A DNA stretch of 64,000 nt from Burkholderia sp. (GTDB taxonomy: Bacteria; Pseudomonadota; Gammaproteobacteria; Burkholderiales; Burkholderiaceae). Both the position numbers and the translations under genes were made by a program. Of this stretch, positions 17,830-27,661 are shown piece by piece. The DNA lies in contig JAIRVP010000076.1 of the NCBI GenBank assembly GCA_031253835.1, positions 62,001-126,000 on the forward strand. Reading direction: 5' to 3'. Every line of letters starts with the position of its first letter. The stretch's first letter is position 1. The notes under the pieces are model-generated. The model had not been told where the DNA came from and made no database searches. It was given only the letters and a program-made list of their open reading frames with translations.

Positions 17830-18546
17830 ATGTCACCTTATATTGCAGAATTCATCGGCACAGCGATCCTCGTGCTGCTCGGCAACGGCGCGGTCGCAAA
17901 CGTGCTGCTTGCAAAGACCAAGGGCAAAGGCGCGGACCTGATCGTGATCGTGATGGGCTGGGCGATGGCCGTGTTCGTCGCCGTGTACGTGACCGCGTCG
18001 TTCAGCGGTGCGCACCTGAACCCGATCGTCACGATCAGTCTCGCGCTCGCGGGCAAGTTCGCGTGGTCGAAAGTCGGCGGCTACGTCCTCGCGCAGATGC
18101 TCGGCGGGATGGCCGGCGCGCTGCTCGTGTGGCTCGCCTATCGCCAGCACTTCGCGAAGGAAGCCGATGCGGACCTGAAGCTCGCGGTGTTCTGCACGGC
18201 GCCGGCGATCCGCAGCGTCACGCACAACGTGCTGACCGAAGCGATCTGCACGTTCGTGCTGATCCTCGGCGTGCTGTACCTCGCGTCGCCGCAGGTCGGC
18301 CTCGGCGCGCTCGACGCGCTGCCCGTCGGCCTGCTCGTGCTCGGCATCGGCATCTCGCTCGGCGGCCCGACCGGCTATGCGATGAGCCCCGCACGCGACC
18401 TGTCGCCGCGCATCATGCACGCGCTGCTGCCGATCCCCGGCAAGCGCGACAGCGACTGGCGCTATGCATGGGTGCCCGTCGTCGGCCCGCTGCTCGGCGG
18501 TGCCGCGGCAGCCGGCCTGTATCTGCACCTGCATTCCACGATCTGA
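17830..18546 (+). CDS. glpF: Glycerol uptake facilitator (aquaglyceroporin) with atypical NPA boxes
   Basis: A 238-residue MIP-family channel with six membrane helices, closest in pattern to the aquaglyceroporins of Gram-positive bacteria (PIPGKRDSDWRYAWVPVVGPLLGG). It lets glycerol diffuse through the inner membrane. The two pore half-helix motifs are unusual: the first is Asn64-Pro65-Ile66 instead of NPA, the second is Ser186-Pro187-Ala188 instead of NPA. The filter arginine, Arg189, is kept. Position after glpK supports a glycerol role. ATG 17830 follows CGAGAGACAACC. Confidence 0.92.
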   Translation: MSPYIAEFIGTAILVLLGNGAVANVLLAKTKGKGADLIVIVMGWAMAVFVAVYVTASFSGAHLNPIVTISLALAGKFAWSKVGGYVLAQMLGGMAGALLVWLAYRQHFAKEADADLKLAVFCTAPAIRSVTHNVLTEAICTFVLILGVLYLASPQVGLGALDALPVGLLVLGIGISLGGPTGYAMSPARDLSPRIMHALLPIPGKRDSDWRYAWVPVVGPLLGGAAAAGLYLHLHSTI

Positions 18547-18617: not shown

Positions 18618-19868
18618 CTACCGGTCGCGCACGGCCGTCACCAGCGACTTGAGCTTCACGTCGACGTCCGCGACAGCCGCCGGCGTCACGTCGATCCCGC
18701 GCTCGACCAGCATTCGCGCCACCCGCATTTCCTTGACGAATCCCGACGTACGGCCGAAGCCGCTTGCGGCGACGAGCCGCTCGCGTGCGTCGAAATGGAA
18801 ATGGATTTCCGCATCGTCGCCGAGCGTGCGCGCGACCGATCGCTCGCCGAGCGCCGGCTCCCCGGCCACCTGCAACTGCGCGTCGTATTGATCGGACCAG
18901 AACCACGGCGCGTCGCGATACGGTTCGTCCGCGCCGAGCATGTTGCGTGCGGCGATGCGCGCCTGCGTCTCGGCGCCGTGCCACGTCTCCAGCCGGACCA
19001 GCCGCCCCGATAAAGCGCTGGGGAAGACCGCGACATCGCCGGCCGCGTAAATGCCCTTCGCCGAGGTTTCGAGCTGCGCGTTCACGACGATCCCGCGCTC
19101 GACCGCGAGCCCCGCGCCGCGCGCGAGTTCGTCGGCCGGGTCGAGGCCGATGCCGGCGACGACCGTATCGGCGATCAACGTGTCGCCATCGTCGAGCACG
19201 ACGGCCAGCGCGCCGCCGGACATCCGCTCGATCGCAACGGGTGTCCGGCTCATGCGGATCGTCACGCCCTGCGCCTCGTGCAGCGCGTGCACGCGTGTCG
19301 CGATCGCTTCCGGCACCGCGCGGCCGAGCAGCCGCGGCGCCGCATCGAGCACGGTCACGCGGCAGCCGCGCAGTCGCGCCGACGCCGCCACTTCGAGACC
19401 GATGAAACCGCCGCCGATCAGCACGATCCGTGCGTCGGGCACGAGCCGCGCGCCGAGCGCCGCCGCATCGTCGAGCGTGCGCAATGCGAATACGCCGTCG
19501 AGTGTCGCGCCCGGAATCGCAAGCCGGCGCGCGCGGCCGCCGGTCGCGAGCAGCAGCGCTTCGCAGGAAAACACGCGCCCGCCGGACACGCGCACCTCGC
19601 GTGCATGCGGATCGATGCGCTCGACGGTTCCGGCAACCGCCTCGATGCCGTCCGCCGCCCACGCGTCCGGATCGCGCAACCGGCATTGCGCCGCGCTGCG
19701 CTCGCCCGTCAGCACGCCCTTCGACAACGGCGGCCGTTCGTACGGCAGGTGCGCTTCCGCGCCGATCATCACGATGCGCCCGCGCCAGCCGGACTCGCGC
19801 AGCACCTGCGCCGCGCGGCCGCCCGCATGGCCGGCGCCGACAATCGCCATCACCCGGTCGTGGGTCAT
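18618..19868 (-). CDS. Ferredoxin-NAD(P) reductase, oxygenase electron-transfer component (MocF-like)
   Basis: A 416-residue FAD/NAD-binding reductase of the rubredoxin/ferredoxin reductase type. The FAD motif is VGAGHAGGRAAQVLRESG, the NAD motif IGGGFIGLEVAASARLRG, and the second FAD motif KGIYAAGDVAVFP; PYERPPLSKG is characteristic of oxygenase reductases. It would take electrons from NADH to the Rieske ferredoxin encoded 4 bp upstream. With that gene and the desaturase it forms a three-part oxygenase transcribed on the minus strand. The same set occurs as mocD-mocE-mocF in rhizopine catabolism of rhizobia. Confidence 0.88.
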   Translation of the reverse strand: MTHDRVMAIVGAGHAGGRAAQVLRESGWRGRIVMIGAEAHLPYERPPLSKGVLTGERSAAQCRLRDPDAWAADGIEAVAGTVERIDPHAREVRVSGGRVFSCEALLLATGGRARRLAIPGATLDGVFALRTLDDAAALGARLVPDARIVLIGGGFIGLEVAASARLRGCRVTVLDAAPRLLGRAVPEAIATRVHALHEAQGVTIRMSRTPVAIERMSGGALAVVLDDGDTLIADTVVAGIGLDPADELARGAGLAVERGIVVNAQLETSAKGIYAAGDVAVFPSALSGRLVRLETWHGAETQARIAARNMLGADEPYRDAPWFWSDQYDAQLQVAGEPALGERSVARTLGDDAEIHFHFDARERLVAASGFGRTSGFVKEMRVARMLVERGIDVTPAAVADVDVKLKSLVTAVRDR

Positions 19869-19872
19869 CGCG

Positions 19873-20181
19873 TCACACCTCGATCAGGATGCGGCCGTCC
19901 TCGATCTTCGCGCGGTACGTGCGCAGCTTCTCGCACGCGGGCGCCGACAGCGGCCGGCCGTCGCGCACGTCGAAGCGCCCGTTGTGCTTCGGGCATTCGA
20001 TCACGTGGTCCATCACGAACCCGTCGGCGAGATGCACCTGCTCGTGCGTGCACAGGCCGTCGCTCGCATAGACCTGCCCGTCGATCCGGTAGATCGCGTA
20101 CGTCCGGCCTGCGTGGTCGAAGCGTGCGACGTCTTCGTCGTCGATGTCGTCGAGCGCGCCGGTGTCGATCCATTGCGTCAT
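19873..20181 (-). CDS. Rieske [2Fe-2S] ferredoxin (MocE-like)
   Basis: A 102-residue soluble Rieske ferredoxin. Cluster ligands are Cys44 and His46 (GLCTHEQ) and Cys63 and His66 (ECPKHNGRFD), the CxH-CxxH pattern. It should carry electrons from the reductase encoded immediately downstream to the membrane oxygenase encoded upstream. ATG 20181 follows GGAGACACGCAAC. The gene lies 36 bp after the desaturase gene and 4 bp before the reductase gene, so one transcript is very likely. Confidence 0.92.
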   Translation of the reverse strand: MTQWIDTGALDDIDDEDVARFDHAGRTYAIYRIDGQVYASDGLCTHEQVHLADGFVMDHVIECPKHNGRFDVRDGRPLSAPACEKLRTYRAKIEDGRILIEV

Positions 20182-20217
20182 GTTGCGTGTCTCCTGGGTT
20201 GGCGGGTTCGATGGCGG

Positions 20218-21300
20218 TCACGCACGCGCGGCTTCCGGCACCGGTCGCACGACGTAGTCGGACGGGTCGCGCGTCTGCCGGACCAGCGCCGGCACGATCT
20301 CCGCGTACGCGGCCAGCGTGCTGCGGTACGGCGGCGGCATGTCGGCCTTCACGGCGTCGTGCAGCTTCGGCAGCGCGTGGAACGGCACCATCGGGAACAT
20401 GTGGTGCTCGACGTGATAGTTCATGTTCCAGTACAGGAAGCGGAACACCGGATTCATCATCACGGTGCGGCAGTTGCGCCGGTGATCGAGCACGTTCTCG
20501 GGCATGCCCGCGTGCTGCGTCAGGCCAAAGTACAGGTACAGCCACGCGCCGTAGAGGCTCGGCAGCCCGATGTAGAGCAGCGGCAGGATCGTGCGCCAGT
20601 AAAGCGACGCCCCGATCACGAGCGCGTAGACCGCGAGATGGATGCGCGATTCGCGCACGACCTTCGGCCATTCCGATTCGGGCACGTAGGTGCGCTCCTC
20701 GTCGTCGAGCCGGCCGGTGAACGACACCGCGACCATCTTGCGCAGCTCGCCGGCCACATGCTTCAGCGCGACGACGTTCAGCGCGAGCGCGAGCCAGTCG
20801 GTCGGCTTCGGCGCGGCGATTTCCGGATCGCGCCCGACGACCAGCGTATCGGTGTGGTGGCGCGCATGGCTCCAGCGCCATGCCGTTGCGCGGCGGAACA
20901 CCTGGAACGACGCGACCTGGTACAGCACGTCGTTCATCCAGCGCGTGCGGAACGCGGTGCCGTGCCCGCATTCGTGCCAGCGCGAGTCGGCCGGGCTGCA
21001 GTAGAGCGTGCCGTACACGAAGAACGCGGGGATCGCCCACGCCGAATGCGCGCGCCACGCCAGCCACGCGAGCACGCCGCTGATCGCGATCGCCGCGTAC
21101 CAGATCAGCGTGTCGCGGATCGCGCGCGCATCGCCGCGCTGCATCAGCTGCTTCATCAGCGGCCGCGGCACCGCGCACCGGTACCACGCCGCATTGACGA
21201 GCCCTGCCGCGTGCGCGCGCTCGCCGGCGCCGCCGATCATTCGGTATGCCTGACGGCGCGCCGCCGTGCGGTCGCGCGCCTGGTCGTCGGGTTGAGCCAC
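20218..21300 (-). CDS. Membrane fatty-acid-desaturase-family oxygenase (MocD-like)
   Basis: A 360-residue integral membrane diiron enzyme. The three histidine boxes are His109-His113 (HECGH), His145-His149 (HARHH) and His296-His300 (HVEHH), with hydrophobic segments around residues 65-105 and 222-262. This superfamily includes desaturases, hydroxylases and MocD of rhizopine catabolism. Pairing with a Rieske ferredoxin and reductase, rather than a lipid-gene context, favours a hydroxylase or O-demethylase over lipid desaturation. GTG 21300 is chosen because AGGGAGACAGAC precedes it; an in-frame start at 21360 lacks a site. Divergent from the LacI-type regulator gene. Confidence 0.85.
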   Translation of the reverse strand: MAQPDDQARDRTAARRQAYRMIGGAGERAHAAGLVNAAWYRCAVPRPLMKQLMQRGDARAIRDTLIWYAAIAISGVLAWLAWRAHSAWAIPAFFVYGTLYCSPADSRWHECGHGTAFRTRWMNDVLYQVASFQVFRRATAWRWSHARHHTDTLVVGRDPEIAAPKPTDWLALALNVVALKHVAGELRKMVAVSFTGRLDDEERTYVPESEWPKVVRESRIHLAVYALVIGASLYWRTILPLLYIGLPSLYGAWLYLYFGLTQHAGMPENVLDHRRNCRTVMMNPVFRFLYWNMNYHVEHHMFPMVPFHALPKLHDAVKADMPPPYRSTLAAYAEIVPALVRQTRDPSDYVVRPVPEAARA

Positions 21301-21392
21301 GTCTGTCTCCCTGGTTTCTTGTGCGAGGAAAGCGCGACAAGCGCTCCGCCATGGGATCAAAATTAGGCGTCCGGCCTCCGCGGCTCAATCGA

Positions 21393-21410
21393 AACGTTGA
21401 CGAAATTTCG
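21393..21410. promoter_or_regulatory. Candidate LacI-family operator in the divergent promoter region
   Basis: AACGTT (21393-21398) and the perfect palindrome CGAAATTTCG (21401-21410) lie side by side between the desaturase gene and the LacI-type regulator gene. Central CG steps within A/T flanks are common in LacI-family operators. Assignment is by position and symmetry only. Confidence 0.35.
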
Positions 21411-21473
21411 CCATCGCTTTAGCGTTTCCGGCAACGCCACGCGATCGATGGCGACTCAACGATGGAGACGACC

Positions 21474-22538
21474 ATGGCAGGTGAATCCGGGCCGCGCTGG
21501 CGCAAGCGCACCGCGCGCTTCGACGAGATCGCGGCGCTCGCGGGCGTCAGCACGACCACCGTCGACCGCGTGCTGAACGAGCGCGGCAGCGTGTCGGCGC
21601 AGGCGCGCGAGCGCGTGGTGGCCGCCGCGCGGCAGCTCGGCGTGCCGCGGCAGCTGCCCGACACGCGGCACGGGCTGATCCACGTCGACGTGCTGCTGCC
21701 CGATACCGACGCGCCATTCTTCCGGCGGCTGCAGCAGGCGCTGCAGCGCTCGCTGCAGATGCTCGACCGGCGCGTGGTCGTGCACCGGACGATCCTGCCC
21801 GCCGCGGACGACGAACGCGCCGCCGTGCTGATCGAACGGCCCGCGTACCGGCGCGCGGCGCTGATCGTCACCGCACGCGACACGGCCCGCGTGCGCGACG
21901 CGCTGGCCGGCGCGATCGCGCGCGGCGAGACCGTCGTCACGATGGTCACCGACATCGGCGGCATCGACCGCGCGCACTTCGCCGGCATCGACAACTACCG
22001 CGCCGGGCGCACGGCCGGCTACTACATCGGCCGCCTCGCGGCGCGCCCCGGCCGCGTGCTGCTGCTCGGCGGGCGCATGGGCTACCGCGCGCACGCCGAC
22101 CGGATGGCCGGCTGCCGCGACCAGCTCGCCGACGCGTTCGCCGCCGTCCGCTGCGACGACGAGCCGGTCGAGACGCTCGACCAGGACGACCGCTGCTACC
22201 GCGCGGTGACGAAGGCGCTGCAGGCACACGACGACGTCGTCGCGATCTACAACAGCGGCGCCGGCTCGGCCGGCATCGAAGCCGCGCTGCGCAAGGCCGG
22301 CGCGATCGGGCGCGTCGTGTGGATCGGCCACGAGATGATCGACCAGCACCGCACCTTCATCGAGGCCGGCGCGATGGATCTCGCGATCGACCAGGATCCG
22401 GACGGCCAGGCGATTTCCGCGCTGCAGCACGTGCTCCATGCCTGCGGGATCGTCGAACAGCCGCCGCCGGGCGACCCGGTCGAATTCCGCGTGTTCTGCC
22501 CGGCGAACGTACGGACGAGCGCGTACCTGCAACCCTGA
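21474..22538 (+). CDS. LacI-family transcriptional regulator
   Basis: A 354-residue regulator. The N-terminal HTH and hinge region reads FDEIAALAGVSTTTVDRVLNERG, the LacI type, here with the TTVDRVLN variant often seen in polyol and inositol regulators. The remainder is a periplasmic-binding-protein-like sensor domain (FAGIDNYRAGRTAGYYIGR, IYNSGAGSAGIEAAL, AIDQDPDGQA). ATG 21474 follows GGAGACGACC. It stands between the oxygenase arm and the dehydrogenase/isomerase arm and probably controls both in response to the substrate or an inositol-like intermediate. Confidence 0.88.
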   Translation: MAGESGPRWRKRTARFDEIAALAGVSTTTVDRVLNERGSVSAQARERVVAAARQLGVPRQLPDTRHGLIHVDVLLPDTDAPFFRRLQQALQRSLQMLDRRVVVHRTILPAADDERAAVLIERPAYRRAALIVTARDTARVRDALAGAIARGETVVTMVTDIGGIDRAHFAGIDNYRAGRTAGYYIGRLAARPGRVLLLGGRMGYRAHADRMAGCRDQLADAFAAVRCDDEPVETLDQDDRCYRAVTKALQAHDDVVAIYNSGAGSAGIEAALRKAGAIGRVVWIGHEMIDQHRTFIEAGAMDLAIDQDPDGQAISALQHVLHACGIVEQPPPGDPVEFRVFCPANVRTSAYLQP

Positions 22539-22682
22539 ATCGCGTCGCGCGCTGCGCCGCGTGCGCCTGGTGAAAAAATCGACCGCCGCATGGGCGATTT
22601 TTCGTCAACGCCGGTCATGCAGCCCGCGCCGCGCATCCGTACATTGGACAGCCATCCGCAGAACGACAATGGACAGGAGACG

Positions 22683-23681
22683 ATGGCTGAACCGATCCTC
22701 ATCGGCGTGAACCTCGACGGCGTGCTCGAACACGACGGCCTGCCGTTGCCCGCGCCCGCGGAACGCTTCCGGATGGTCGCCGAGGCCGGCGTGTTCGACT
22801 ACGTCGAAAAGAACCCGGTGCGCGGCGAAGACCTGTCGCCGTATTTCGCGCTGGTCGACCGCCATGCGCTGCCGATTCGCGTGATCGGCGGCATCTGGTG
22901 CGCGGGCCGCGACGAAGCGCACATCGCCGAGATCGTCGACGCAGGCGCGCGGTTCGGCAGCACGGTGCTCAACTGCCAGCTGTTCGCGCATCACGCGGAC
23001 GGCCATCCGCTGTCGGAGCGCGAAGTCGCCGATTTCTACCTGCGTACCCATGAACGCGGCGAGCCGGCCGGCTGCCTGCCGAGCCTCGAAGTGCACGTCG
23101 ACATGTGGAGCGAGGATTTCGCGCGCGTGGCACGCGTCGCGCAGCATGTCGAGCAGGCCGGCGCGCCGTTCCGGATCACGCTCGATCATTCGCACCTGCT
23201 GTTCAAGATCGGCAATCGCGCCGAACTCGATGCGTCGGGCATGCAGGATTCGGCCGACGGCCGCCCGATGCTCGACCCGGCTTCACCCGCTGCCTTCTAC
23301 ACCGACTGGATCGCGCGCGGCTGGGTCCGGCATGCGCATGCGCGCAGCGTCGCGCCGAACAATCCCGACAACCGCTGGATGCGCCGCGCGGACGGCCGGC
23401 CCGGGCGCGGCATCCAGTACCCGTTCGTCGCGCCTGCGCCGGGCGCGTATCACGGCGAATGGCACGCGGCGTCGCTCGATACGTGGAAAGCCGCACTGCG
23501 CCAGTTGCTGCACGCGCAGGTTCACGCGCGGCCGTCGCCGCTCGAACAGATCAGTTGCGAGTTCATCCCGTTTCCCGACTACGGCGGCGGCGCACGCTAT
23601 TCGATCTTCGACAACAACGTCGCGTGCGCGCACTGGCTGCGCGACACATGGCATGCCCTCGCCGCCCGCACCGGCACCTGA
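22683..23681 (+). CDS. Unrecognised protein, possibly TIM-barrel sugar isomerase-like
   Basis: A 332-residue soluble protein that I cannot assign to a named family with confidence. Segments such as RVIGGIWCAGRDEAHIAEIVDAG, SLEVHVDMWSED and FRITLDHSHLL alternate strands and helices as in xylose-isomerase-like TIM barrels, with His, Asp and Glu at strand ends that could bind a metal. No signal peptide or membrane segment. ATG 22683 follows GACAGGAGACG. It lies between the regulator gene and the MocC-like gene, all codirectional with gaps of 144 and 37 bp, so a role in the same pathway is likely. Confidence 0.6.
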   Translation: MAEPILIGVNLDGVLEHDGLPLPAPAERFRMVAEAGVFDYVEKNPVRGEDLSPYFALVDRHALPIRVIGGIWCAGRDEAHIAEIVDAGARFGSTVLNCQLFAHHADGHPLSEREVADFYLRTHERGEPAGCLPSLEVHVDMWSEDFARVARVAQHVEQAGAPFRITLDHSHLLFKIGNRAELDASGMQDSADGRPMLDPASPAAFYTDWIARGWVRHAHARSVAPNNPDNRWMRRADGRPGRGIQYPFVAPAPGAYHGEWHAASLDTWKAALRQLLHAQVHARPSPLEQISCEFIPFPDYGGGARYSIFDNNVACAHWLRDTWHALAARTGT

Positions 23682-23718
23682 TGCGAACCCGCCCCACTCG
23701 AGACCCAAGGACACAACG

Positions 23719-24546
23719 ATGACGCAGGCCTTCCACTTTTCGCTGAACCGGATGAGCGCGCCGCGCTTGCCGCTCGACCGCTATGTCGCGCTGTGCCGGC
23801 GCCTCGGCGTCGACACGATCGAGATCCGCAACGATCTCGACGGCGTCGAGATCGCCGACGGCACGCCGGCCGCGGCCGTGCGCGCGACGGCCGAAGCCGG
23901 CGGCGTGACGATCCTGACGATCAACGCGCTGCAGCGCTTCGAGCAATGGAACGCCGAGCGCGCGGACGAGGCGACCGTGCTGGCCGACTACGCGGCGCAA
24001 TGCGGCGCGCGTGCGCTGGTGCTGTGCCCGACCAACAGCCGCAACGACACGCGCGGCGCGGACGCACGCCATGCGGATCTCGTGAAGGCATTGAAGGCGC
24101 TGAAGCCGATCCTCGAAGCACGCGGCCTGCTCGGCTTCATCGAGCCGCTCGGCTTCGAGGAATGCGCGCTGCGCCGCAAATCCGATGCGGTGAAAGCCCT
24201 CTACGACGCGGCGGGCGAACAGGTCTTCCGGCTCGTGCACGACACGTTCCACCATCACCTGTCCGGCGAGGACATCTTCTTCCCGAACCTGACGGGCCTC
24301 GTGCACCTCTCCGGCGTCGAGGAAGCCGGCCTGCCGGTCGACCGGATGCGCGACGGCCACCGCGTGCTGGTCGGCGGCGCCGACCGGCTCGGCAACATCC
24401 GGCAGCTGCGCGAACTGCTTGCACGCGGCTACCGCGGCGCGTTCTCGTTCGAGCCGTTCGCGAGCGAGATCGCCGAAGCCGGCGACATCGAAGACCGGCT
24501 GCGCGCGAGCATCGACTACGTGCGCGGCGAGTTGGCCGATCGCTGA
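23719..24546 (+). CDS. MocC/IolE-like TIM-barrel isomerase or dehydratase
   Basis: A 275-residue TIM-barrel protein of the xylose-isomerase-like (AP endonuclease 2) superfamily. Strand-end residues that could bind a divalent metal are seen in GFIEPLGFEECALR (Glu), LVHDTFHHHLSGED (Asp, His) and FSFEPFASEI (Glu). In pattern it resembles MocC of rhizopine catabolism and IolE-like enzymes acting on inositol keto-derivatives. ATG 23719 follows AAGGACACAACG. It is followed 67 bp later by a MocA/IolG-like dehydrogenase gene. The exact reaction is not known from sequence. Confidence 0.78.
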   Translation: MTQAFHFSLNRMSAPRLPLDRYVALCRRLGVDTIEIRNDLDGVEIADGTPAAAVRATAEAGGVTILTINALQRFEQWNAERADEATVLADYAAQCGARALVLCPTNSRNDTRGADARHADLVKALKALKPILEARGLLGFIEPLGFEECALRRKSDAVKALYDAAGEQVFRLVHDTFHHHLSGEDIFFPNLTGLVHLSGVEEAGLPVDRMRDGHRVLVGGADRLGNIRQLRELLARGYRGAFSFEPFASEIAEAGDIEDRLRASIDYVRGELADR

Positions 24547-24613
24547 TACGTCACCCCGGCACGCAGCCGACACCCGCCGCGCGCCGGAAAAATCCAATCG
24601 ACAGGAGAACGGA

Positions 24614-25600
24614 ATGATCGAATTTGCCTTGTTCGGCGCGGGCAGGATCGGCAAGATCCATGCGGCGAACCTCGCGCGCCACCCGGGCGCGACACTCCGG
24701 TACGTGATCGACCGCCATGCGCCGTCGGCCGACGCGCTGGCCCGCGCGCACGGCGCGCAGGTCGCCGACATCGAACGCGCGCTCGGCGATGCATCGGTGC
24801 AGGCCGTCGTGATCGCGTCGAGCACCGACACGCACGCCGACCTCATCGTCGCGGCCGCGAACGCGGGCAAGGCCGTGTTCTGCGAGAAGCCGGTCGACCT
24901 GACCGTCGAGCGTTCGCGCGCGTGCGCGGAGGTCGTCCGGCGCACCGGCGTGACCTGCATGATCGGCTTCCAGCGCCGCTTCGATCCGACCTTCGCCGCG
25001 CTGAAGGCACGCGTCGAGCGCGGCGAGATCGGTGCGCCGGAAATGCTGGTCGTCACGAGCCGCGACCCGGGCGCGCCGCCGGTCGACTACCTCCGCAGCT
25101 CGGGCGGCATCTTCAAGGACATGCTGATCCACGACTTCGACGTGTTCCGCTGGATCCTCGGCGACGAGGCGCAGACGCTGCACGCGACCGGCAGTTGCCT
25201 GACCGACCCGGCCGTGCGCGAAGCGGGCGACATCGATTCGACCGCCGTGACGATCCGTACGCGGCGCGGGCTGCTGTGCCAGATCAACACGTCGCGACGC
25301 GCGGCCTACGGCTACGACCAGCGCTTCGAGCTGCTCGGCAGCAACGGGATGCTGCAGGCCGGCAACGTGCGGCCGACCGAGGTGAGCGCGTGGCTCGCCG
25401 GCGGCATCGCGACGGACGTACCGGAGCCGTTCTTCCTCGAACGCTACCGGCATGCGTACGCGGCCGAGATCGCGCACTTCGTCGACGCGCTGCGCGACGG
25501 CACGCCGGTCCGGACGACGATCGACGACGGGCTCGCGGCGCTCGAGCTGGCCGAGGCCGCGATGACGTCGTGGAAAACGGGGCGCGTGATCGAGCTGTAA
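24614..25600 (+). CDS. Inositol 2-dehydrogenase-like oxidoreductase (IolG/MocA family)
   Basis: A 328-residue NAD-dependent Gfo/Idh/MocA-family dehydrogenase. The Rossmann motif GAGRIGKIHAANL is at residues 7-19, the catalytic-lysine motif is FCEKPVDL, and the substrate region GGIFKDMLIHDFDVFRWI carries the Asp and His used by inositol dehydrogenases. It probably oxidises myo- or scyllo-inositol or an inosamine-like polyol to a keto form. ATG 24614 follows CAGGAGAACGGA. It closes the plus-strand arm of the island. Confidence 0.87.
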   Translation: MIEFALFGAGRIGKIHAANLARHPGATLRYVIDRHAPSADALARAHGAQVADIERALGDASVQAVVIASSTDTHADLIVAAANAGKAVFCEKPVDLTVERSRACAEVVRRTGVTCMIGFQRRFDPTFAALKARVERGEIGAPEMLVVTSRDPGAPPVDYLRSSGGIFKDMLIHDFDVFRWILGDEAQTLHATGSCLTDPAVREAGDIDSTAVTIRTRRGLLCQINTSRRAAYGYDQRFELLGSNGMLQAGNVRPTEVSAWLAGGIATDVPEPFFLERYRHAYAAEIAHFVDALRDGTPVRTTIDDGLAALELAEAAMTSWKTGRVIEL

Positions 25601-26542: not shown

Positions 26543-27253
26543 TCACGCCGGCTCGCAGCAACGCTCGCGCGCGACGGCCAGCGCCTCGCGAAACTCGACG
26601 AGTTCCGCGATCGTCAGCATCGGCAACCCGTGCCGTTGCGCGAAACGCTCGACGTCGTCGCCGCGCGTCATCGTGCCGTCCGGATTCATCAGCTCGCACA
26701 GTACGCCGGCCGGCTTCAGGCCCGCGAGGATCGACAGGTCGACCGTGCCTTCGGTGTGACCGCGGCGCGCGAGCACGCCACCCGGTTGCGCACGCAACGG
26801 AAATACATGGCCGGGGCGCACGATGTCGTGCGGCTTCGCGCCTTCCGCGATCGCCGCGCGGATCGTCGTCACGCGATCGGCCGCCGACACACCGGTATGC
26901 ACGCCTTCGCGCGCTTCGATCGACACCGTGAACGCGGTGCCGTTGCGGCTTTCGTTGGTCTGCACCATCGGCGGCAGTTCGAGCGCGCGCACCGTGTCGT
27001 CGGTCAGGCACAGGCACACGATGCCGCTGCACTCGCGGATCAGCAGCGCCATCGTCTCGGGCGTGATGCGCTCGGCGGCAACGATCAGGTCGGCCTCGTT
27101 CTCGCGGTCGTGGTCATCCTGCAGCACGACTGCACGGCCTGCGCGCATCGCATCGAGTGCAGCGGCGATGCGCGGGGGCACCGGTTCGGTATCCAGCAAC
27201 GGGAGATCGGCAAAGGCGTCGGCCGGTGCCGACGTGATGGACATCAAGGACAT
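26543..27253 (-). CDS. ribB: 3,4-dihydroxy-2-butanone-4-phosphate synthase
   Basis: A 236-residue riboflavin biosynthesis enzyme converting ribulose-5-phosphate to 3,4-dihydroxy-2-butanone 4-phosphate plus formate. Visible signatures: [16 protein letters not shown] (substrate and Mg binding), [32 protein letters not shown] and [13 protein letters not shown] with the catalytic His. There is no GTP cyclohydrolase II half, so it is RibB rather than a RibBA fusion. ATG 27253 has GAGGAGCG at good spacing. An FMN riboswitch precedes it on the same strand, giving feedback control by FMN. Confidence 0.95.
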
Positions 27254-27379
27254 GTGAAACGCTCCTCGCAAATACGATTTGGGCGAAAAACGTTCCAGGG
27301 CATTGCAAACAGACAGAACGACAACCCGCTTCGCACGCATCGCGAAGCGGCCCTGACGGACATGACTATCTGCACATCT

Positions 27380-27518
27380 TCTCTCATCCGGACTATGACC
27401 GTCGGCTCTGGCATTCGACCAGATCTGCTGACCCCGCGCGGAGGCGCGGGCGCTCGCGGGCTCGCCGGCTTACGCCAGCCTACCGCCGGTGGGGAATTTC
27501 ACCCCGCCCTGAAGACGC
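27380..27518 (-). promoter_or_regulatory. FMN riboswitch (RFN element)
   Basis: Read on the minus strand, the conserved RFN blocks appear in order: CTTCAGGGCGGGGTGAAATT, then CCCCACCGGCGGT, GTCAGCAGATCTGGT, GCCAGAGCCGACGGTCATAG and TCCGGATGAGAGAAG. The variable stem is GCGCCCGCGCCTCCGCGCGGGG. The element ends about 126 nt before ribB, leaving room for an expression platform. FMN binding should lower ribB expression. Confidence 0.96.
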
Positions 27519-27661
27519 ACTGATTGCCGGACGGGCACTCCCCGTCAACGGCGGGCCAAGCATACAACAGCGGCGCGCGAAGCGCAGCGCACCCCACCTA
27601 AAACCTTACTGACGACTCCGTCTAACGGCATCGTCCGAACGGCCGACCACCTGGCGCGCGA

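Follow-up and report, generated by a model that had tools for sequence, protein, structure and literature searches.

A divergent Burkholderia locus that joins a MocDEF-type oxygenase chain to inositol genes and probably serves the use of an O-methylated cyclitol

Two described systems come closest to the genes reported here: the rhizopine genes mocRABCDEF of Sinorhizobium meliloti L5-30 and Rhizobium leguminosarum, and a non-rhizopine arrangement of rhizobia in which a lacI gene stands divergent from mocDEF (LacI|mocDEF) together with a gene for an Msi119-type triose-phosphate isomerase (TIM) barrel. The second arrangement has already been described, and according to excerpts of PMC3538637 its authors suspected an inositol derivative as the substrate. 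In the available extracts of PMC5132102 and PMC5789663, mocDEF were read, with or without caution, as a sign of rhizopine use; the former extract also places a gene called xylA2 beside mocDEF in Pseudomonas syringae. We analyzed a 64,000-nucleotide stretch (the window; bases 62001-126000 of one contig) of a Burkholderia genome of 7.55 Mb in 83 contigs. The window contains a divergent locus of seven genes at 18618-25600, three on the minus strand and four on the plus strand, in which a MocD, MocE and MocF oxygenase chain is found with a LacI-family regulator, a 332-residue protein (U332), an IolI-like TIM barrel and an inositol 2-dehydrogenase (IolG).

The oxygenase chain is what this island has in common with the rhizopine set, but it carries LacI, IolG, the IolI-like protein and U332 instead of the other rhizopine components. 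With the rhizobial LacI|mocDEF loci it shares the divergent lacI and, in R. leguminosarum WSM1689, an adjacent TIM barrel that is 54% identical to that of the island and corresponds by position to the Msi119 homologues in excerpts of PMC3538637. In contrast, the rhizobial LacI is just 25-27% identical to the island LacI, no U332 match is found there, a panB-like gene that the island does not have follows mocF in 2 of 3 loci read, and the three annotated regions contain no iolG. On two Rhodobacterales plasmids, from Aestuarium and Marivivens (L179, L180), LacI|mocDE lies in line with genes for a binding protein, an ATP-binding cassette (ABC) transporter, iolG and iolC; mocDE are thus joined with inositol genes outside rhizobia, but these stretches contain no mocF or U332 match, have their own transporter and a panB-like gene, and their iolG is 48% identical to that of the island. 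Finally, loci with VanA-type Rieske oxygenases (Marinobacter, Variovorax, Paraburkholderia silviterrae and others) resemble the island in that a U332 homologue (36-43%) stands directly downstream of a demethylase-type oxygenase gene. Their oxygenase is of the Rieske type, not membrane di-iron as in the island, and their setting was read by eye.

Taken together, we think it rather probable that the island encodes a pathway under LacI control for the use of an O-methylated cyclitol, in which U332 is linked to the oxygenase and an add-on cassette is combined with a core. A plant O-methyl-inositol (pinitol or ononitol, for example) is the most likely substrate. Of the readings considered, the one best supported by gene context is that a methylated cyclitol loses its O-methyl group and then enters inositol catabolism, as an earlier note on this DNA had proposed. 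MocF would draw electrons from NAD(P)H and hand them to the Rieske ferredoxin MocE and then to MocD, which would hydroxylate the O-methyl carbon; the hemiacetal would break into formaldehyde and free inositol. IolG would turn the inositol into an inosose, the IolI-like barrel would isomerise this keto form into one that the standard route accepts, and an iol cluster elsewhere in the genome would complete the breakdown. That cluster is marked by iolD on another contig (862.5 bits versus a cut-off of 715), and genes judged by eye to be iolC-, iolE-, iolB- and ABC-transporter-like adjoin iolD, outside the island. U332, a probable metal-dependent enzyme, may handle the oxygenase product or the released one-carbon unit. 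The core of LacI, IolI-like protein and IolG alone would process an unmethylated cyclitol, with mocFED-lacI-U332 as the add-on.

Pinitol is an attractive substrate because its demethylation yields D-chiro-inositol, which needs such a dehydrogenase and isomerase. D-chiro-inositol is handled by the IolG and IolI of Bacillus subtilis. The available part of PMC5789663 gives a 1.53-2.11-fold induction of mocDEF of Rhizobium mesoamericanum by Mimosa root exudate, in which pinitol was the most concentrated component; its authors took the induction as rhizopine use, and it is consistent with the pinitol reading. Searches of the open-access literature listed nothing relevant on bacterial pinitol demethylation, and the terms "pinitol" and "desaturase" are both absent from the inositol-cluster survey PMC9430895.

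The divergent arms, the gene order and the gaps of 36 and 4 base pairs in the oxygenase arm were all recovered as the earlier note had described them. MocD (359-residue frame) has its three His boxes, HECGH, HARHH and HVEHH, intact at residues 108, 144 and 295, and the Rieske motif of MocE is likewise intact. MocE scored 144.3 bits against the TIGR02377 MocE-family cut-off of 136.15, and IolG scored 411.1 bits against the TIGR04380 cut-off of 355. Because both exceed their family cut-offs, the gene set is not a chance assembly. The dehydrogenase had been described as IolG/MocA-like; the IolG half of that label stands and the MocA half does not, since identity to the dehydrogenases of two rhizopine-type reference loci is only 27-29%. 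The two dehydrogenases of the R. leguminosarum reference locus fall under the IolG cut-off, at 183.4 and 99.9 bits.

The neighboring TIM barrel had been called MocC/IolE-like, a label that does not hold: the IolE/MocC model did not match it, and it is closer to rhizobial Msi119-type and to IolI-type proteins. No NCBIfam model matched it, and tblastn at E 1e-3 found no match in the reference loci. Its best solved relatives are PDB 2q02 and 4hgx, and a profile built from the barrel and seven relatives reaches IolI (1i60) at 1.3e-8, while being far closer to 2q02/4hgx. A search of the open-access literature gave no paper linking Salmonella STM4435 with inositol.

Table 1. Coordinates of the island genes, the candidate operator and the sister-genus barrel genes.
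Feature	Position	Strand	Evidence
mocF-like ferredoxin reductase, last in oxygenase arm	18618..19868	-	Pfam Pyr_redox_2 and Reductase_C
mocE-like Rieske [2Fe-2S] ferredoxin	19873..20181	-	TIGR02377; motif C44xH/C63xxH
mocD-like membrane di-iron oxygenase, fatty-acid-desaturase superfamily	20218..21300	-	PF00487, 5.9e-40; three His boxes
Palindrome TGACGAAATTTCGCCA, candidate LacI operator	21398..21413	no strand	Between divergent genes; conserved core
LacI-family regulator, Peripla_BP_4-type sensor domain	21462..22538 (probable start 21474)	+	PF00356, PF13407
U332, xylose-isomerase-like TIM barrel, 332 aa	22683..23681	+	Candidate ligands E136, D168, H219, E293
IolI/IolH/Msi119-like TIM barrel, probable inosose or keto-cyclitol isomerase	23722..24546	+	PF01261; PDB 2q02/4hgx, 2.4e-38
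IolG inositol 2-dehydrogenase	24611..25600	+	TIGR04380; best PDB match 4hkt, inositol 2-dehydrogenase, 5.7e-91
Sister-genus barrel	L213:6748-7626; L209:6617-7453; L204:8179-9000; L212:11562-12380		Fragments in L208

We then analyzed the distribution of the island in 65 Burkholderia genomes. U332 (at least 82% identity) and mocD (at least 89%) were found in the same 32 of them, with both genes on a single contig except in G057, where they lie on two. The arms therefore occurred together in 32 of 32 carriers within the genus, and the lack of co-occurrence that the earlier note had named as telling against its proposal did not appear. Other genomes of the genus gave weaker desaturase-family matches (the best 42%, in G028), and in one genome (G003) there is a further relative of U332, at 35%. 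The TIM barrel and LacI were each found in 36 of the 65 genomes, the 32 plus G027, G050, G055 and G058. We read the island site in 10 genomes of our choosing from the 33 without the mocD arm: in 4 of the 10, LacI and the TIM barrel (three also with iolG) stand without mocDEF and U332; in 5, glpF adjoins the HAD gene and the island is wholly absent; and the remaining one (L225) has the HAD gene only. The LacI proteins of the four minimal loci form a clade of their own (100/100) and are 79-82% identical to that of the window; in poorly resolved trees, no such separation is seen for their IolG and TIM-barrel proteins.

Thus the mocFED-lacI-U332 block behaves as a cassette that some loci have and others lack, on top of a LacI-TIM-IolG core, and the simplest reading of the sequences is that this contiguous block has been exchanged by recombination. 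The order glpK-glpF-mocFED-lacI-U332-TIM-iolG-HAD is common to most of the 22 named Burkholderia loci; the exceptions are a short contig (L092), loci with other flanks (L099, L110, L106) and loci with shortened matches to mocF or iolG (L095, L100, L106, L110). Some copies may be damaged (55 residues of iolG matched in B. ambifaria RZ2MS16, 50 of mocF in B. puraquae). All seven genes also occur on a B. cenocepacia plasmid typed as conjugative. B. latens has two island copies (L099, L110), and the usual glpK and HAD genes are not in their stretches.

U332 matched no Pfam or NCBIfam family, and a search of PDB sequences up to E 1 returned one chance-level match and no true relative. Its predicted structure (predicted local distance difference test score, 95.1) is a xylose-isomerase-like TIM barrel, for which the best structural matches, at about 10-16% identity, are Art22, IolE-type and ketose 3-epimerase chains. 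Across 63 sequences, E136 and D168 never vary and position 293 always holds E or D; position 219 carries H or Q in 61 of them. We take E136, D168, H219 and E293 as a candidate metal site. By predicted structure and conservation, U332 thus belongs with proteins that combine this fold with a four-residue metal site. The nearest named proteins, at 94% identity, are from Burkholderia sp. BCC1644 and B. arboris, so that the host probably belongs to the cepacia complex.

As to U332 and DEMETHYLASES, a genome-wide scan for U332 kept 80 of 121 matching loci, of which 22 are from Burkholderia, 1 is from Aquabacterium and 57 are more distant (36-49%). A usable U332 gene call was obtained in 49 of the 58 non-Burkholderia loci (not in L121, L126, L130, L135, L149, L156, L161, L163 and L164). 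In these 49 loci, one Rieske oxygenase cluster accounts for 24 of 187 genes at most two places from U332 versus 5 of 273 genes at least five places away (Fisher p 2e-6, for loci that are related and not independent). The Rieske gene is immediately upstream of the U332 homologue in 18 of 47 cases, always on the strand of U332 and carrying a Rieske motif, and all four upstream Rieske proteins scanned have the vanillate O-demethylase C-terminal domain (VanA_C). On plasmids, 53 records match U332, 38 of them from Acinetobacter. Annotated Rieske oxygenases accompany four of five plasmid homologues (33-40%) in gene clusters, and three of these clusters also contain a nucleobase symporter; glutathione formaldehyde genes are near two of the five. 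The five U332-like plasmid genes (L172-L176) come from Acinetobacter, Pseudomonas, Paraburkholderia and Aminobacter. Relatives of U332 therefore recur beside two unrelated oxygenase architectures, although not throughout the family.

On the other hand, U332 may be unrelated to the oxygenase and belong to the inositol arm, where it could, for instance, isomerise or epimerise a chiro-inositol intermediate. We regard this as possible but doubtful. U332 shares its strand with iolG and is placed between lacI and the TIM-barrel gene, its best matches include IolE-type structures, and among the closer alphaproteobacterial homologues (L112-L130, 44-49%) none of 16 usable loci has a Rieske gene within two genes, which also weighs against our linking of U332 to the oxygenase. 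However, U332 is missing from all four minimal LacI-TIM loci read, with no match in those genomes; it follows mocF directly in Aquabacterium; a Rieske oxygenase gene precedes many of the distant homologues; and U332 has no profile similarity to the neighboring TIM barrel. A bolder version of the oxygenase link is that U332 founds an unnamed family of demethylase-associated TIM barrels, which would serve MocD-type and VanA-type oxygenases through a hydroxymethyl intermediate or formaldehyde; in that case the locus would be a methyl-cyclitol demethylation cassette of modular design, added to an inositol core already in place. We hold this to be an outside chance, lowered because of the missing Rieske neighbor in those 16 closer loci. 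Searches of the open-access literature listed nothing relevant on a Rieske-associated TIM barrel.

We also examined mocD loci outside the genus. MocD at 75-82% identity was found in 21 of 249 sampled genomes of the family, all of other genera (one with an inner stop); other matches were lower. Fourteen sister-genus loci were read, 12 from those 21 and two at about 50%. LacI is related to that of the island (66-71%) in 4 of the 14, and in another 4 it is nearly identical to that of Caballeronia and 43-44% identical to the rhizobial one. In the closest other-genus mocD locus of the family sample (L203), genes for S-(hydroxymethyl)glutathione dehydrogenase (629.7 versus 544 bits) and S-formylglutathione hydrolase (462 versus 282 bits) adjoin LacI|mocDE. 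Among nine annotated plasmid mocD regions, a gene for a panB-like protein (3-methyl-2-oxobutanoate hydroxymethyltransferase) is listed in five, purU in two and folD in one. The one panB-like protein tested (L178) is distantly homologous to PanB and passes the Pfam cut-offs but not those of NCBIfam. Formaldehyde and folate genes stand beside the oxygenase in such loci, which suggests, from the known roles of these enzymes, that a methyl group is removed. The presence of panB-like and purU genes after mocDEF suggests a folate route for the released carbon; two rhizobial loci have this order, with folD too in the first (L178:11706-14319, L181:11747-13488).

An Aquabacterium metagenome-assembled genome has orthologues of mocF (56%), U332 (57%), iolG (63%), mocE (68%, partial) and mocD (66%); mocF stands directly before U332, and mocE and mocD lie at the ends of two contigs. 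In 4 of the 14 sister-genus loci, another TIM-barrel-like protein (about 280-293 residues, its fold guessed by eye) is encoded beside mocE/mocF (Table 1). It gave no Pfam or NCBIfam match for L213 and no NCBIfam match for L209. We considered it as a relative of U332 and rejected it, as blastp showed no relation.

Several observations weigh against the methyl-cyclitol pathway as proposed. None of the 14 sister-genus mocD loci has U332 or iolG within about 6-10 kilobases. The removal of the O-methyl group by MocDEF is itself a model drawn from rhizobial genetics, credited to Bahar in 1998. No formaldehyde gene is present among the seven island genes, and panB, purU and folD are all unlisted in 4 of the 9 plasmid mocD loci, for which the gene tables are incomplete. 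The joint presence of contiguous mocDEF, lacI and U332 could reflect one recombination event and not shared function. In Paenibacillus, mocDEF lie among genes judged by eye to be non-inositol, so that MocDEF need not act on inositols.

The Paenibacillus locus also speaks for another substrate, an O-methylated sugar or other non-cyclitol methyl ether, with the IolG and TIM-barrel pair serving a ketose or keto-glycoside pathway. Enzymes of the Gfo/Idh/MocA family act in glycoside oxidation too, and C-glycoside cleaving barrels (8qrz, DgpB-DgpC, DfgA-DfgB) are among the many structural matches of U332. We judge this reading unlikely, although it retains some weight: IolG passes the inositol 2-dehydrogenase equivalog cut-off, the barrel profile reaches IolI, and iol genes occur in two other mocDE loci.

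The earlier note had viewed the island as rhizopine-like (moc-type). A true rhizopine locus, for 3-O-methyl-scyllo-inosamine or scyllo-inosamine in a non-rhizobial host, is mostly refuted, and we consider it very improbable. We compared the island with two plasmid-borne rhizopine-type loci, from Phyllobacterium zundukense Tri-48 and R. leguminosarum RCAM2802. They are imperfect references: MocR is confirmed only in the former, an IolE-type protein (TIGR04379, 394 versus 290 bits) only in the latter, and the R. leguminosarum binding protein scores 39.5 against 420 on the NCBIfam rhizopine binding-protein model. Membership was rejected, as only mocD, mocE and mocF match well. These three do make up the oxygenase, ferredoxin and reductase of the rhizopine set, with MocD 51-52%, MocE 56-59% and MocF 42-45% identical (MocF, 56% to Aquabacterium), and the MocE family model fits. 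However, MocD is equally close (52-53%) to rhizobial LacI-type copies without adjoining MocR. A tree built from 15 hand-picked MocD sequences puts the latter and the rhizopine-type copies into one unresolved group and those of Burkholderia/Caballeronia into another (97/100); the window's copy is 51-53% identical to the alphaproteobacterial ones. In addition, the locus has no MocR, MocC or close MocA, its regulator is LacI and its dehydrogenase IolG, and there is no aminotransferase among the seven genes. Genome-wide, the best match to MocR (NF052281) was 482.9 bits, under the cut-off of 650, versus 765.1 for the control Phyllobacterium locus. MocB is absent from the seven genes, the rest of the genome not having been searched for it. 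That the locus lies outside the classical host group holds in that the host is non-rhizobial, but it is less striking than first thought, as MocD relatives are widespread (286 plasmid records have one). As the comparison indicates, the MocDEF oxygenase chain is the wider group, and rhizopine loci hold one branch of it.

It is hardly credible that the oxygenase chain acts as a desaturase or hydroxylase of lipids and is linked to an inositol locus merely through a shared divergent promoter region: MocD does lie in the fatty acid desaturase superfamily (PF00487) and matches only that broad family in Pfam and NCBIfam profile searches, with no PDB sequence relative up to E 0.1, but the bacterial lipid desaturase equivalogs score 40.7 and 19.7 bits on it against a cut-off of 500, far below and unlike MocE and IolG on their own models (so that the lipid- or alkane-type best match named in the earlier note as damaging did not occur), formaldehyde or one-carbon genes adjoin several relatives, and the oxygenase is present or absent together with the island LacI type and U332.

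The regulatory region between the arms contains a palindrome whose core, CGAAATTTCG, is identical in 21 of 22 aligned rows (the window and 21 Burkholderia loci), the remaining row being one base off. The candidate operator has a single exact copy genome-wide and 22 further places with 2 mismatches (6 in the read-backwards control); as a regulon probe for a transporter, it matched exactly at the local site only. The core was not found in the four minimal LacI-TIM loci. A second palindrome in the intergenic region was dropped, its arms being out of register. From conserved sequences resembling ribosome sites, mocD likely starts at a GTG at 21300 and lacI at the ATG at 21474. One genome of the genus encodes a second LacI, 63% identical to that of the island (G056:C33:26037-27074).

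The seven genes have median ratios of nonsynonymous to synonymous substitution rates of 0.11-0.26, each against 18 to 21 related loci (mocD, 0.17; U332, 0.26; iolG, 0.11), with 0.07 for the adjoining glpK. That no transporter gene is adjacent holds in the window; we did not count the MIP channel at 17830-18546 because it is grouped with glpD and glpK and is kept in genomes without the island. In B. pseudomultivorans (L098), the TIM-barrel gene and iolG are separated by a Porin_4 gene, and L101, L104 and L109 have a gap of similar size there. Farther along, a flavin mononucleotide riboswitch (27372-27520, minus strand; 108.5 versus 66.2 bits) lies upstream of a gene named ribB-like by eye (26543-27340), the usual arrangement.

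New here are the mocFED-lacI-U332 cassette over its core and the distant U332 homologues downstream of VanA-type genes. Genes labeled mocDEF, the oxygenase half of the rhizopine genes, are easily mistaken for a sign of rhizopine use, and in the island the oxygenase part of that set would serve another, probably more general role, alongside an unnamed partner; this general job is probably the demethylation of methylated cyclitols. Such compounds are widely made by legumes, according to excerpts of PMC8730688. The present-or-absent cassette is a ready natural comparison, and U332 offers a way into an unstudied oxygenase partner. If true, the proposed pathway would suggest how soil and plant-associated bacteria, including opportunistic Burkholderia, reach the carbon of methylated cyclitols.

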